40,253 nt of DNA, taken from contig JAUNEN010000021.1 in assembly GCA_030525525.1 (NCBI GenBank), forward strand, positions 1 through 40,253, given 5' to 3'. The stretch comes from Erysipelotrichaceae bacterium (GTDB taxonomy: Bacteria > Bacillota_I > Bacilli_A > Erysipelotrichales > Erysipelotrichaceae). Shown here in pieces: positions 3,480 to 32,240 of this stretch; the first letter of the stretch is position 1; each line of letters opens with the position of its first letter. A model generated the notes under the pieces. The model did not search any database and was not told where the DNA came from. It saw only the letters and a list, made by a program, of their open reading frames with translations. The translations under genes and the position numbers were made by a program.

Positions 3480-4292
3480 ATGACAGTACAGGAAATCATC
3501 AATCTGATTCTGGATTCTATCGGCGGGGGCAGACACATCTGTCCGACCTGCGATGTTCTTGCCTGCGGCGATCCGGATATGGAAGTCACAGGCATCGTCA
3601 CAACATTTATGCCGACGGTGGAAGTGATCCGCAGAACCATTGAATGCGGCGCCAACTTCATTGTTTCCCATGAGCCGACCTGGTTCAACGGCAGCGATGA
3701 AACAGAATGGTGTCAGAATGACAGCGTCTATCTGGCCAAGAAGCAGCTGCTGGAAGAAAATCACATTGCTGTATGGAGATTCCATGACCACATGCACTTC
3801 GGCACAAACATCGATTATATCTACCGCGGAATCATCCAGGAGCTCGGATGGCGGGCATATCTGCAGGATGATGAAAAGGAACCGTGGGTATATGAAATTC
3901 CGGCAACCACATTAAAAGATCTTGCAGAATGGCTGAAGAAAACATTTGAAATGGACGAAATCCGTACTGTCGGCAATCCTGACTGTCCGATTACACGCGC
4001 CGGTCTGCTGGTCGGAGGCGGAAGTCTAGGACTTGGCAGGGAAGTAATGCCGATGGAAGTGATGGAGCGGAACAATCTCAACGTTCTGATCTGCGGCGAT
4101 ATTACCGAATGGACAACTGTTGCATATATCCGTGATGCTTCACAGCTCGGCATGAACCGCTGCATGATCCACCTGGGCCATGAAAGAACAGAAGAACCAG
4201 GCATGAAGTATCTGCCGCTTTACCTTAAGCCATATATTCACAATATACCTATTTCCTTTATCAGTTCTGAAGAACCTTATACATATTTCTGA
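3480..4292 (+). CDS. Nif3-family (DUF34) metal-binding protein, carbohydrate-locus subfamily
   Basis: A 270-residue protein. The start at 3480 is chosen over longer in-frame openings because a GAGG site precedes it and the upstream part overlaps the transporter. Nif3 features are NFIVSHEPTWF near residue 60 and the C-terminal GHERTEEPG metal-ligand motif. The usual HHP pair is HEP here, and a WRFHDHMH segment follows. I recall this variant from a Nif3 branch found in sugar-utilisation loci. Nif3 proteins bind two metal ions, and some have been linked to hydrolase activity. The exact reaction is unknown. It is in the middle of the operon, 11 bases before the next gene. Confidence 0.8.
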   Translation: MTVQEIINLILDSIGGGRHICPTCDVLACGDPDMEVTGIVTTFMPTVEVIRRTIECGANFIVSHEPTWFNGSDETEWCQNDSVYLAKKQLLEENHIAVWRFHDHMHFGTNIDYIYRGIIQELGWRAYLQDDEKEPWVYEIPATTLKDLAEWLKKTFEMDEIRTVGNPDCPITRAGLLVGGGSLGLGREVMPMEVMERNNLNVLICGDITEWTTVAYIRDASQLGMNRCMIHLGHERTEEPGMKYLPLYLKPYIHNIPISFISSEEPYTYF

Positions 4293-28885: not shown

Positions 28886-30250
28886 ATGGAAAAAACAGAT
28901 ATCCCCGAAACAATTCAGAAAGGCATGAAATCACTCGGTTATGATTCCCTTCTGCCTGTTCAGAAAGAGATCATACCTCATATTCTGAACAAAGAAAATC
29001 TGATCATTCAGGCAGAGACAGGTTCCGGAAAAACAGCTGCTTATCTGATTCCTGTTCTGACGATGATGAATCAGCTTTCTTCAACAACAGAAACACTGAT
29101 CATTGCCCCGACAAGAGAACTTGCCGTACAGATTCATAAGGAAGCTGCCGCACTGGGTGCATATAAGGGAATCCATTGTATTTCGGCAATCGGCGGACTT
29201 GATACAGATGCACAGATCAATGCATTGAAACACAGACCTCATCTCATATCGGCAACCCCGGGCAGACTCTGCGATCTGATCAGATCGGGAAGTGTCGATC
29301 TTTCTGCCCTTCAGACTCTGATCATTGATGAAGCAGATCAGATTTATTCAACCGGACAGATGGAAGAAATGAAATTCATTCTGGATCAGATGAATACGGT
29401 ACAGATAATTCTGGTGTCTGCGACACTGGATGAGAATGTGACTTCATTCATGAAAAATGAATATCAGAAACTGATCTTCCATTCGGAAAAAGAAGTGAAC
29501 CAGAATATCGATGAATATTATCTGCTGAGTGAAAACAAGGAAAAGACATTATACAGTCTGCTTGAACACGAACAGATTGAATCAGCTGTCATCTTTGTCA
29601 ATCACCGCAGCACTGTCAAAGAACTGAATGGAAAACTCAGAAAGAAGAATATCCTTTCGGCACCTTTTTCTTCGGACTATGACGAGAGGACAAGACTTAA
29701 AACAATGAAGGCTTTCCGGGAAGGAAATATCCGGATTCTTGTCGCAACCGATGCGATGGCAAGAGGAATCGATCTGCCGGGAATCTCTCATGTCATTCAC
29801 TTTGATCTACCGGTTGATCAGAATACATATATCCACCGCAGCGGCAGAAGCGGCCATCAGCAGAATGAAGGAATCACAATTTCACTGATCTCAAAACAGG
29901 AAATCACTTCTGAAACTGCATTGTTAATCATGAAGGATTCATCCGAATATGTGATTGATGAGACACAGATCAATGCTCTTTCTGTTCCTCTTCAGAAAGA
30001 AACAAGAGGAACGGATTTTACGTTTGTGATTCTCATCAGAGCAGGCAGAAATGACAAAATAAGGCCGAAGGATATTGTCGGTGCACTCACTTCCAGAATT
30101 CCGTTTGAAGAGATCGGCACAATCGAAATTCAGGACTCATACTCCCTCATCAGAATTCTCAATCATGATTCATCTGTTGTTGAAGAACTCAGAGATCTGA
30201 AAATCAAAGGGAAAAAGAGAAGAATTGAAGCTGCGAAGAATCAGTATTAA
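28886..30250 (+). CDS. DEAD-box RNA helicase, DbpA/YxiN-like
   Basis: A 454-residue helicase. Motifs in order: AETGSGKTAAY (I), APTRELA (Ia), TPGRL (Ib), DEAD (II), SAT (III), VATDAMARGIDLP (V) and HRSGRSGH (VI). The last residue of motif VI is His, where the family has the arginine finger (HRxGRxxR). Residues ~375-450 resemble the DbpA RNA-binding domain (TDFTFVILIRAGRNDKIRP, KGKKRRIEAAK), which targets hairpin 92 of 23S rRNA. It probably helps in large-subunit assembly, fitting the rRNA genes next door. The DbpA assignment rests on this tail and is moderately sure. Confidence 0.85.
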   Translation: MEKTDIPETIQKGMKSLGYDSLLPVQKEIIPHILNKENLIIQAETGSGKTAAYLIPVLTMMNQLSSTTETLIIAPTRELAVQIHKEAAALGAYKGIHCISAIGGLDTDAQINALKHRPHLISATPGRLCDLIRSGSVDLSALQTLIIDEADQIYSTGQMEEMKFILDQMNTVQIILVSATLDENVTSFMKNEYQKLIFHSEKEVNQNIDEYYLLSENKEKTLYSLLEHEQIESAVIFVNHRSTVKELNGKLRKKNILSAPFSSDYDERTRLKTMKAFREGNIRILVATDAMARGIDLPGISHVIHFDLPVDQNTYIHRSGRSGHQQNEGITISLISKQEITSETALLIMKDSSEYVIDETQINALSVPLQKETRGTDFTFVILIRAGRNDKIRPKDIVGALTSRIPFEEIGTIEIQDSYSLIRILNHDSSVVEELRDLKIKGKKRRIEAAKNQY

Positions 30251-30285: not shown

Positions 30286-30315
30286 ATTGACCGCCGGTCA
30301 ATCTGTATGTATATT
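30286..30315 (+). promoter_or_regulatory. Promoter of the flotillin operon with a TetR-like palindrome over the -35 box
   Basis: TTGACC (30287-30292) and TATATT (30310-30315) are exactly 17 bases apart, a strong sigma-A promoter. The -35 box is part of the perfect palindrome ATTGACC-GCC-GGTCAAT (30286-30302), whose form is like many TetR-family operators. The start point would be about 30322, right at the 5' end of the structured leader. No regulator gene lies next to it. Confidence 0.65.
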
Positions 30316-30321
30316 AATCTC

Positions 30322-30454
30322 AAGTGAGGGAGTAGCAGGCGACGCCGCATATCGCGGCTGATCGTCACCACGATGAAACCATCCGGTCAGCCTCAATCTG
30401 CAAGACTCACGAACAGTCAATCACTGTCCGTGAGACAAAACAATCGTTCAGTCA
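30322..30454 (+). ncRNA. yybP-ykoY-type (Mn2+) riboswitch in the flotillin operon leader
   Basis: P1 pairs GUGAG (30324-30328) with CUCAC (30406-30410). GGAGUAGC follows its 5' strand and GCAAGA precedes its 3' strand, as in the yybP-ykoY consensus as I remember it. Inside are GACG/CGUC with an inner CCGC/GCGG, then CGUCACCACG, a GAUG/CAUC hairpin and CCGG, again as in that class. The P1 3' strand also belongs to a 12-bp hairpin (30406-30417 with 30423-30434, one mismatch). When P1 forms, 30422-30433 is free to pair with 30452-30465 (12 bp, 2-base bulge), which destroys the terminator stem. Ligand binding should therefore switch transcription on, as known for Mn2+ riboswitches. Confidence 0.85.
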
Positions 30455-30482
30455 CGGGTACAGTGAAGCTGTATCCGTTTTT
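30455..30482 (+). terminator. Riboswitch-controlled intrinsic terminator
   Basis: CGGGTACAG (30455-30463) pairs with CTGTATCCG (30469-30477; one G-T pair) around a 5-base loop, followed by TTTTT. It lies 84 bases before the flotillin start, so it can only act as an attenuator. Its 5' arm is shared with the antiterminator helix. Confidence 0.85.
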
Positions 30483-30565: not shown

Positions 30566-32023
30566 ATGGAAAAATTATTTGTTTACATCCCGATTTTCAT
30601 CATTCTCGTACTGGCTGTGATCATCCTGTTGACAGGTTATGTCAAAGCCTCTCCCGACAAAGCAGTCATCATTTCCGGCCTGAAGAAAACACCTCGTGTA
30701 TTGATCGGCCGGGCCGGACTGAAGATTCCTTATCTTGAAAAAGTCGACCATCTCTATCTGAATCAGATTTCCGTCGACATCAAGACAGATTCTTATATTC
30801 CGACCAACGACTTCATCAATGTCAAAGTCGATGCAATCGCAAAAGTCAGAATCGATACAAGTCCCGAAGGCATGTTGAAAGCGGAAAGAAACTTCCTGAA
30901 TAAAAAGCCTCAGGATATCGCTCTTGATCTGCAGGACTCCCTGCAGGGCAACATGCGTGAAATCATCGGCACACTGGATCTCAAGACAATCAACACCGAC
31001 CGTGATTCCTTCTCAGATCAGGTGATGGCAAAGGCAAGCAAGGACATGGAGAAGCTCGGTATCGAAATTCTCTCCTGCAACATCCAGAATGTCACCGATG
31101 AAAACGGACTGATCAACGATCTCGGTATGGACAACACAGCCAAGATCAAAAAAGACGCTGCGATCGCAAAAGCTGAAGCTGACAGAGACGTGGCAATCGC
31201 CAAGGCGGAAGCAGACAGAGCTGCCAATGACGCAAGAGTCGCTGCCCAGACAGAAATTGCCCGCAAGAACAATGAACTCAGCGTCCGGGAATCTGAACTG
31301 AAATCAATGTCCGATACCGCAAGAGCCCAGGCAGATGCGGCTTATGAAATCCAGAATCAGGAACAGCAGAAAGTCATTCAGACCGCAACCGTCAATGCAC
31401 AGATTGCAAGAGCGGAAAGAGAAGCAGAACTGAAACAGAAGGAAGTCAGTGTCAGACAGCAGGAACTGGCTGCCGCAATCGAAAAGAAAGCAGACGCTGA
31501 CAAATACGCTGCTGAAAAAGCTGCCGAAGCTGCCCTGATCAAAAAGCAGAAAGAAGCGGAAGCCGCCAGATTCACAGCCGAGCAGGAAGCTGCCGGTATC
31601 AAGGCAAAATATGAAGCAGAAGCTGCAGGTATTGCCGCAAAGGGTAAAGCGGAAGCAGAAGCCGCAAGACTCAAGGGTCTGGCTGAAGCAGAAGCGATGG
31701 AAAAGAAAGCAGAAGCCTACAAGAAGTACAATGGCGCTGCGATGGCAGAAATGATGATCAGAATCATGCCTCAGATGGCTGCTGAAATTGCAAAGCCTCT
31801 CTCCTCCATCGATAAGATCAATATCTATGGTTCAGGTAACAGCGAAGCAGGTGCTTCCCAGATCTCCGGTAATATGCCGGTCATTATGAAACAGGTATTT
31901 GATACAATGAGTGAAGCAACAGGTGTCGACTTTGCGGAAATCATGAAGGCAAATACATATGATGCCAAGGTCAACCGCAACATCCATCTGGACAGCTCAA
32001 ATGTTGCTTTGGAGGTAAAGTAA
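30566..32023 (+). CDS. floT: Flotillin-like SPFH membrane scaffold protein
   Basis: A 485-residue flotillin. A hydrophobic segment (~5-25, PIFIILVLAVIILLTGYV) inserts in the membrane. The SPFH/band-7 domain (~30-190) begins SPDKAVIISGLKKTPRVLIGRAGLK, and a long Ala/Glu/Lys-rich coiled coil (~195-395) with repeated KAEAD-like units follows. Flotillins organise membrane microdomains and affect fluidity, secretion and signalling. The start at 30566 is chosen because the ATG at 30554 is fused to the GGAGG ribosome site. No NfeD gene is near; the partner is a zinc-ribbon protein. Expression appears to be under a Mn2+ riboswitch. Confidence 0.92.
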   Translation: MEKLFVYIPIFIILVLAVIILLTGYVKASPDKAVIISGLKKTPRVLIGRAGLKIPYLEKVDHLYLNQISVDIKTDSYIPTNDFINVKVDAIAKVRIDTSPEGMLKAERNFLNKKPQDIALDLQDSLQGNMREIIGTLDLKTINTDRDSFSDQVMAKASKDMEKLGIEILSCNIQNVTDENGLINDLGMDNTAKIKKDAAIAKAEADRDVAIAKAEADRAANDARVAAQTEIARKNNELSVRESELKSMSDTARAQADAAYEIQNQEQQKVIQTATVNAQIARAEREAELKQKEVSVRQQELAAAIEKKADADKYAAEKAAEAALIKKQKEAEAARFTAEQEAAGIKAKYEAEAAGIAAKGKAEAEAARLKGLAEAEAMEKKAEAYKKYNGAAMAEMMIRIMPQMAAEIAKPLSSIDKINIYGSGNSEAGASQISGNMPVIMKQVFDTMSEATGVDFAEIMKANTYDAKVNRNIHLDSSNVALEVK

Positions 32024-32024
32024 G

Positions 32025-32240
32025 ATGAAAAACACAGGCGTCTGTCCCAAATGCGGACAATCCCGCATCATCCGGATCGAAGGCCAGGCAAGAGCGTACG
32101 GCGCAGGAAATAATATTCCTGTCGGCGTCACAATTTTCTCTTATGTGAAGGTTCCCCGCTACCTGTGTCTGAACTGCGGATATTCCGAAGAGTGGATTGA
32201 TCTTGAAGATCTTCCTGTCCTGGAAGAAAAATTCGGTTAA
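32025..32240 (+). CDS. Small zinc-ribbon protein coupled to the flotillin
   Basis: A 71-residue protein with two cysteine pairs, CPKCGQSRI (residues 7-15) and CLNCGYSEEW (~48-57), one zinc ribbon in which the two halves are separated by ~35 residues. It starts 1 base after the flotillin stop, and its GGAGG site lies within the last codons of the flotillin, so translation is coupled. The function is unknown. It may bind zinc or sense metal, which would be of interest given the Mn2+ riboswitch in front of the operon. Confidence 0.8.
   Translation: MKNTGVCPKCGQSRIIRIEGQARAYGAGNNIPVGVTIFSYVKVPRYLCLNCGYSEEWIDLEDLPVLEEKFG

Follow-up and report, generated by a model that had tools for sequence, protein, structure and literature searches.

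The window analysed here, the whole stretch of 40,253 nucleotides, comes from an Erysipelotrichaceae-type genome of 3.5 Mb in 212 contigs (G000) and contains a leader of 240 bases that follows a DEAD-box helicase gene (28886-30250) and precedes a flotillin gene starting at 30566. A sigma-70-type promoter on the forward strand (TTGACC-17 nt-TATATT; 30287-30315) puts the start point at ~30322, where an earlier note on this DNA had the leader begin; in relatives, a promoter likewise lies immediately upstream of the leader. The flotillin gene (30566-32023, forward strand) encodes a FloT-like protein of 485 aa with SPFH and flotillin domains, and the closest kin of this protein in a flotillin tree are from Erysipelotrichaceae. 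It is followed on the same strand by a gene for a zinc-ribbon-like protein of 71 aa (32025-32240), which is likely co-transcribed with it. A perfect inverted repeat, TGACC-GCC-GGTCA (30287-30301), overlaps the -35 box upstream of the leader; it is also present in the loci L002, L006, L007 and L008 and may be the operator of a repressor and, thus, a second layer of control.

The first part of the leader (30322-30412, forward strand, as are all elements below) folds into the helices of a yybP-ykoY aptamer. The 5' strand of P1 (GUGAG, 30324-30328) pairs with CUCAC (30406-30410), and is followed by the 5' strand of L1 (GGAGUA, 30329-30334; GGAGUAGC at 30329-30336, with coordinates checked against the sequence), which contains the conserved A of the class, here at 30331 (A10 in L. 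lactis). The helix closing L1 is formed by GCAG (30335-30338) and CUGC (30398-30401), and leads into the P2 hairpin (GCGA/UCGC, 30339-30355, taken from the minimum free energy fold) and the P3 region (30356-30392), in which 30356-30363 pair with 30385-30392 to form P3, and 30372-30375 with 30380-30383 to form P3.1. The L3 core, GUCACCAC, occupies 30364-30371 and includes the invariant A (30367); GUCA (30364-30367), together with the CGG that closes L3 (30384-30386), constitutes the L3 signature by which members of the class are recognised. A short linker of 7 nt (UCAAUCU, 30393-30399) lies where crystallised members have P4, and the element ends with the 3' strands of L1 (GCAAGA, 30400-30405) and P1 (30400-30410 together). 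P1, the closing helix, P2 and P3/P3.1 are all present in the unconstrained minimum free energy fold of 30322-30412, the leader folds more stably than shuffled versions of itself (z = -3.5), and the pattern GGGAGUARC-N40-70-GYRAGAC has one match in the window and none in 100 shuffles. Thus, the class feature of P1 with a GGAGUA/AAGA loop and a GC/GC closing helix is present, while the four-way junction with P4 is replaced by a three-way junction. All helix coordinates that the earlier note had claimed for P1, its flanks, hairpin A, the antiterminator and the terminator (see below for the last three) were verified on the sequence.

Among known systems, one of the closest is the yybP-ykoY Mn2+ riboswitch of Lactococcus lactis yoaB (crystal structure 4Y1I). 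yoaB and the window element share P1 as the switch helix, GGAGUA in L1, an L3 with UCA (A41 in yoaB) and the closing CGG; they differ in that yoaB has a four-way junction with P4. In crystal structures, the conserved A10 of L1 docks against P3.1 and Mn2+ sits on an invariant adenosine, which in L. lactis is A41 (UCA41AUUC) and in X. oryzae is A48 (ACA48UACU) (PMC6754395). The counterparts in the window are 30331 for the L1 adenosine and UCA(30367)CCAC for L3, such that the Mn2+-specific adenosine (A41/A48) is kept at 30367. The E. coli alx element (L125; GGGAGUAAC, GAUCGUCAnnACGAUG, CAUCCGGUC, GUGAGACC) has almost the same core as the window element: GAUCGUCAUUACGAUG...CAUCCGGUC in alx and GAUCGUCACCACGAUG...CAUCCGGUC in the window are nearly identical, and the layout of the L3 core (UC-GUCAnnAC ... 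C-GG) is the same in both. The E. coli alx and mntP leaders, of which the latter is a translational switch (PMC11647493), have P4 hairpins and target Mn2+ exporters, whereas the window element lacks P4 and targets a flotillin. Based on these core residues, we infer that Mn2+ is the ligand of the window leader.

The earlier note proposed a search with the Rfam model RF00080 as a check and a missing hit as a refutation, and formally this check failed: neither the gathering threshold nor a permissive search with E up to 10 gave a match in the window element, and there was none anywhere in the source genome. RF00080, the 177-position Manganese model, also reached its cut-off in none of 198 genomes of the class and none of 344 genomes of the phylum (Bacillota) and exceeded it in only 2 of 14 control genomes; in the L. 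lactis control genome, it stayed below the threshold although the Mn2+ riboswitch of this species has been studied experimentally. Sub-threshold matches precede genes for MntP, P-type ATPases and Ca2+/cation exchangers, and look like yybP-ykoY elements. RF00080 thus seems to miss most members in Bacillota, and because the model is overly strict in this group, its silence is not counter-evidence to the class assignment. In this way, a form of the riboswitch that is common among Bacillota of the gut and rumen would be overlooked, so that the manganese regulons of these bacteria are probably larger than annotated.

To recognise the class independently of flotillin genes, covariance model R1 was built from 16 aligned non-flotillin yybP-ykoY elements preceding mntP, P-type ATPase and Na/Ca-exchanger genes, with E. 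coli mntP included and without a single flotillin leader. In the 40-kb window, R1 identified the window element with 38.8 bits (E=3.2e-7), while the next best match had 11.5 bits. When 84 sources (392 kb) were searched with E up to 10, there were 44 matches, including the window element and its same-genus copies L002 and L003, and R1 recovered about half of the 80 flotillin leader loci fetched. The only matches elsewhere were a second element in L026 and, at a low score, E. coli alx, with flotillin loci without a leader serving as negative controls. The yybP-ykoY identity proposed in the earlier note is, therefore, borne out by a model that had seen no flotillin leader, and from sequence we regard the class assignment of the window element as strongly supported. 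L026 is a short Lachnospiraceae contig with copies at 1089-1188 and 4008-4107, one before the flotillin gene and the other downstream of it and ahead of another gene. In L055 and L077, both from Lachnospiraceae, insertions in the P2 region extend the aptamer to 140 and 157 nt, respectively, compared with ~95 nt; L055 is among the weakest R1 matches (20.3 bits), and L077, whose P2 insert is very long, was picked up by the pattern only.

At the DNA level, BLAST against 60 relatives returned only two further leaders, the rest being too divergent. We aligned 34 flotillin leaders using MAFFT (alignment A3). All 34 share GGGAGUA and the C of the L3 motif without exception, and by inspection the L3 core and the CGG are preserved, with the L003 row shifted by MAFFT and L010 having UACA. 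In P1, U-A is exchanged for A-U (21/11) and G-C for A-U (23/11), and in the pair closing L1, A-U for G-C (17/16). Altogether, five of the seven pairs of P1 and the L1-closing helix covary, with 92-100% of the cells paired; over all helices, 14 of 18 pairs vary on both sides, a count in which P3 is under-represented because MAFFT misplaces it in some rows. Paired cells amounted to 77.6% compared with 63.1% in shuffles, and none of 500 shuffles attained the score, a test that is inflated by kinship among the sequences; every slid register was far worse than the true pairing. Covariation in relatives, the absence of which the earlier note had named as a refutation, is accordingly seen for P1, the closing helix and P3, as well as for the antiterminator. 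A chance collection of hairpins and a terminator, with no riboswitch involved, would agree with the lack of an Rfam match; the R1 matches, the covariation and the absence of the pattern from shuffles exclude this reading, which we consider almost certainly wrong.

Several points speak against the leader being an Mn2+ riboswitch of this class: RF00080 does not match, P4 and with it the four-way junction are missing, a flotillin is not a metal transporter, variants for other divalent metals may exist in the yybP class, and 39 of 53 flotillins on the Lachnospiraceae side have no such leader. With P4 replaced by a 7-base linker, we classify the window element as a variant and not as a plain member. 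L086, L087, L113 and L118 share the three-way layout, in which a short unpaired linker stands in for P4; they differ from the window element in having classic export targets (MntP, P-type ATPase) and an L3 mostly of the AACA type. Because P4-less elements precede mntP and P-type ATPase genes, the loss of P4 marks a variant of the class rather than flotillin loci, and P4 is characteristic rather than defining. The main rival to the Mn2+ reading is that the P4-less subtype has the same architecture and senses another divalent metal, e.g., Fe2+, Co2+, Ca2+, Zn2+ or Cd2+, to which flotillin responds. Breaker and colleagues expect that the yybP class may contain variants specific for other divalent metals, partly in view of unexpected target genes (PMC7266159), and both the missing P4 and targets such as flotillin, FMN reductase, ABC transporters and Na/Pi cotransporters fit this proposal. 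However, neither the adenosine that discriminates Mn2+ nor the L1/L3 core is changed, and the same P4-less form precedes mntP and a gene for a cation P-type ATPase, which makes sensing of another metal unlikely in our judgement. It is also rather unlikely that there is a large P4-less yybP-ykoY subclass, invisible to Rfam, in which metal specificity or sensitivity has shifted and which governs a broader stress regulon (flotillin, Na/Pi cotransporters, ABC transporters), so that membrane microdomains would answer directly to a metal other than Mn2+.

From the 3' strand of P1 onwards, three further helices were identified. Hairpin A, an anti-antiterminator (30406-30434; 11 bp with one internal mismatch), has CUCAC in common with P1; the antiterminator is formed by 30422-30433 and 30452-30465 (12 bp with a 2-nt bulge); and the intrinsic terminator (30454-30482) consists of a hairpin at 30454-30478 (11 bp, loop of 3) and U's to 30482. 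In most relatives, a homologous hairpin follows the aptamer. Folding of the growing transcript gave, in this order, the aptamer, hairpin A, P1 with the antiterminator, and hairpin A with the terminator. In the absence of ligand, the terminator state is favoured over the state with P1 and the antiterminator by ~8 kcal/mol (-46.5 vs -38.3) and, therefore, ligand energy or kinetics would have to tip the switch, as is normal for switches of this kind. In 16 leaders of this two-hairpin type, the 3' arm of hairpin A and the 5' arm of the leader's own terminator are complementary, with mean pairing energies of -12.6 kcal/mol for own arms, -8.1 for swapped arms and -5.9 for shuffled arms. None of 20,000 permutations matched the antiterminator partners as well in these 16 leaders, where the arms were chosen by hand and the related loci are dependent samples.

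The arrangement of hairpins varies among relatives. In Lachnospiraceae leaders (e.g., L048 and L060), the hairpin formed by the P1 3' strand is followed by U's, such that P1 and the terminator compete directly. The window leader and those of its near relatives lack a U tract after the first hairpin, and the second hairpin acts as the terminator; as modelled, the window switch is a relay of hairpin A, antiterminator and terminator, unlike the direct competition in several relatives and in L. lactis yoaB. In L016, L019, L021 and L023 from Erysipelotrichaceae, a P1 3'-strand hairpin with U's is followed by a second terminator, and the two successive terminator-like hairpins downstream of a single aptamer could possibly function as a double-lock platform.

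Known terminator-bearing members of the class are ON switches that act via P1.1 (PMC11087558), and yoaB is turned ON by transcription antitermination, as predicted for the window switch. We suggest that Mn2+ would fill the L1-L3 site and hold P1 closed, so that CUCAC could not build hairpin A and 30422-30433 would remain available for pairing with the terminator's 5' arm, allowing RNA polymerase to read through into the flotillin gene. Without Mn2+, P1 would open, hairpin A would form, the terminator would fold and transcription would stop. According to this model, the leader is a transcription-terminating yybP-ykoY (Mn2+) riboswitch without P4 that turns ON flotillin expression with Mn2+, a reading to which we assign a probability of roughly 0.8; the arrangement of the helices predicts the ON direction. 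Alternatively, the leader may descend from yybP-ykoY and have lost its ligand response, with attenuation now governed by a protein or by the speed of transcription. The junction is three-way instead of the four-way form of the crystal structures, and a relayed platform could in principle run without a ligand; however, all core residues that serve only metal docking are kept across two families and would not be required for attenuation, and we regard this alternative as very improbable.

The same leader, which the earlier note proposed to look for as a check, is found before flotillin homologues in relatives: in a tree of 81 flotillins, it precedes 27 of 28 flotillins of the Erysipelotrichaceae clade; on the Lachnospiraceae side, 14 of 53 have it and the other 39 do not. 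A quick flotillin tree requires 9 changes to explain its presence. Cultured carriers include Erysipelotrichaceae bacterium NK3D112 and Butyrivibrio proteoclasticus P6B7. Upstream genes vary from carrier to carrier, so the RNA tracks with flotillin. Assignment of the leader to the DEAD-box helicase gene upstream was rejected, as only L006-L008 have this gene in common with the window. The earlier note had suggested the flotillin and zinc-ribbon pair as the target; flotillin, kept across two families, stands; the zinc-ribbon gene lies downstream of it in only 7 of 80 loci.

The role and timing of bacterial flotillins are still debated. A metal riboswitch before flotillin genes in two families provides a concrete candidate signal for flotillin, i.e., manganese excess. 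The presence of the leader suggests that carriers raise flotillin at high manganese, and flotillin may help the cell to cope with an excess of this metal. In B. subtilis, the TerC proteins MeeF and MeeY, which are Mn2+ exporters, co-purify with FloT and FloA (PMC10550928), making a functional tie between flotillin and manganese plausible. Among 5.39 million open papers, those naming both riboswitch and flotillin were compared by titles, counts and one checked passage, and no link of a yybP-ykoY RNA to flotillin was found. Flotillin is probably a new target of the class; the target of L. lactis yoaB is a P-type ATPase. The unusual points of the window element are, thus, the absence of P4, the relayed terminator switch and the flotillin target.

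Model R2, built from alignment A3, identified seven copies in the source genome and also matched in 53 of 60 relatives, in which the element precedes genes for MntP, Na/Ca and other exchangers, P-type ATPases and Na/Pi cotransporters; the MntP, exchanger and ATPase targets favour the Mn2+ riboswitch reading. The six other copies in the source genome precede genes for a Na+/Ca2+ exchanger, a Na/Pi cotransporter, a CitMHS/ArsB-like transporter, an ABC ATPase with a permease, an unknown membrane protein of at least 473 aa and, 390 nt away, an FMN reductase. The source genome has one MntP and no TerC. Control of this mntP gene (in C88) by the switch of the Na/Pi cotransporter gene was considered and is unsupported, as a terminator-like sequence and ~630 nt lie between them.

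Na/Pi cotransporter genes are preceded by the P4-less aptamer in L130/L192 (G000:C88), L137, L138, L145 and L154, which suggests a link between manganese and phosphate handling; the Na/Pi cotransporter in the source genome carries a PhoU domain. The copy in L126/L193 (G000:C107; R1, 44.9 bits) lies ahead of the gene for the membrane-anchored protein of at least 473 aa, for which no Pfam or NCBIfam match was found. In L127 (G000:C199) and L135, the aptamer precedes genes for ABC-transporter ATPases, with a permease gene next in L127.
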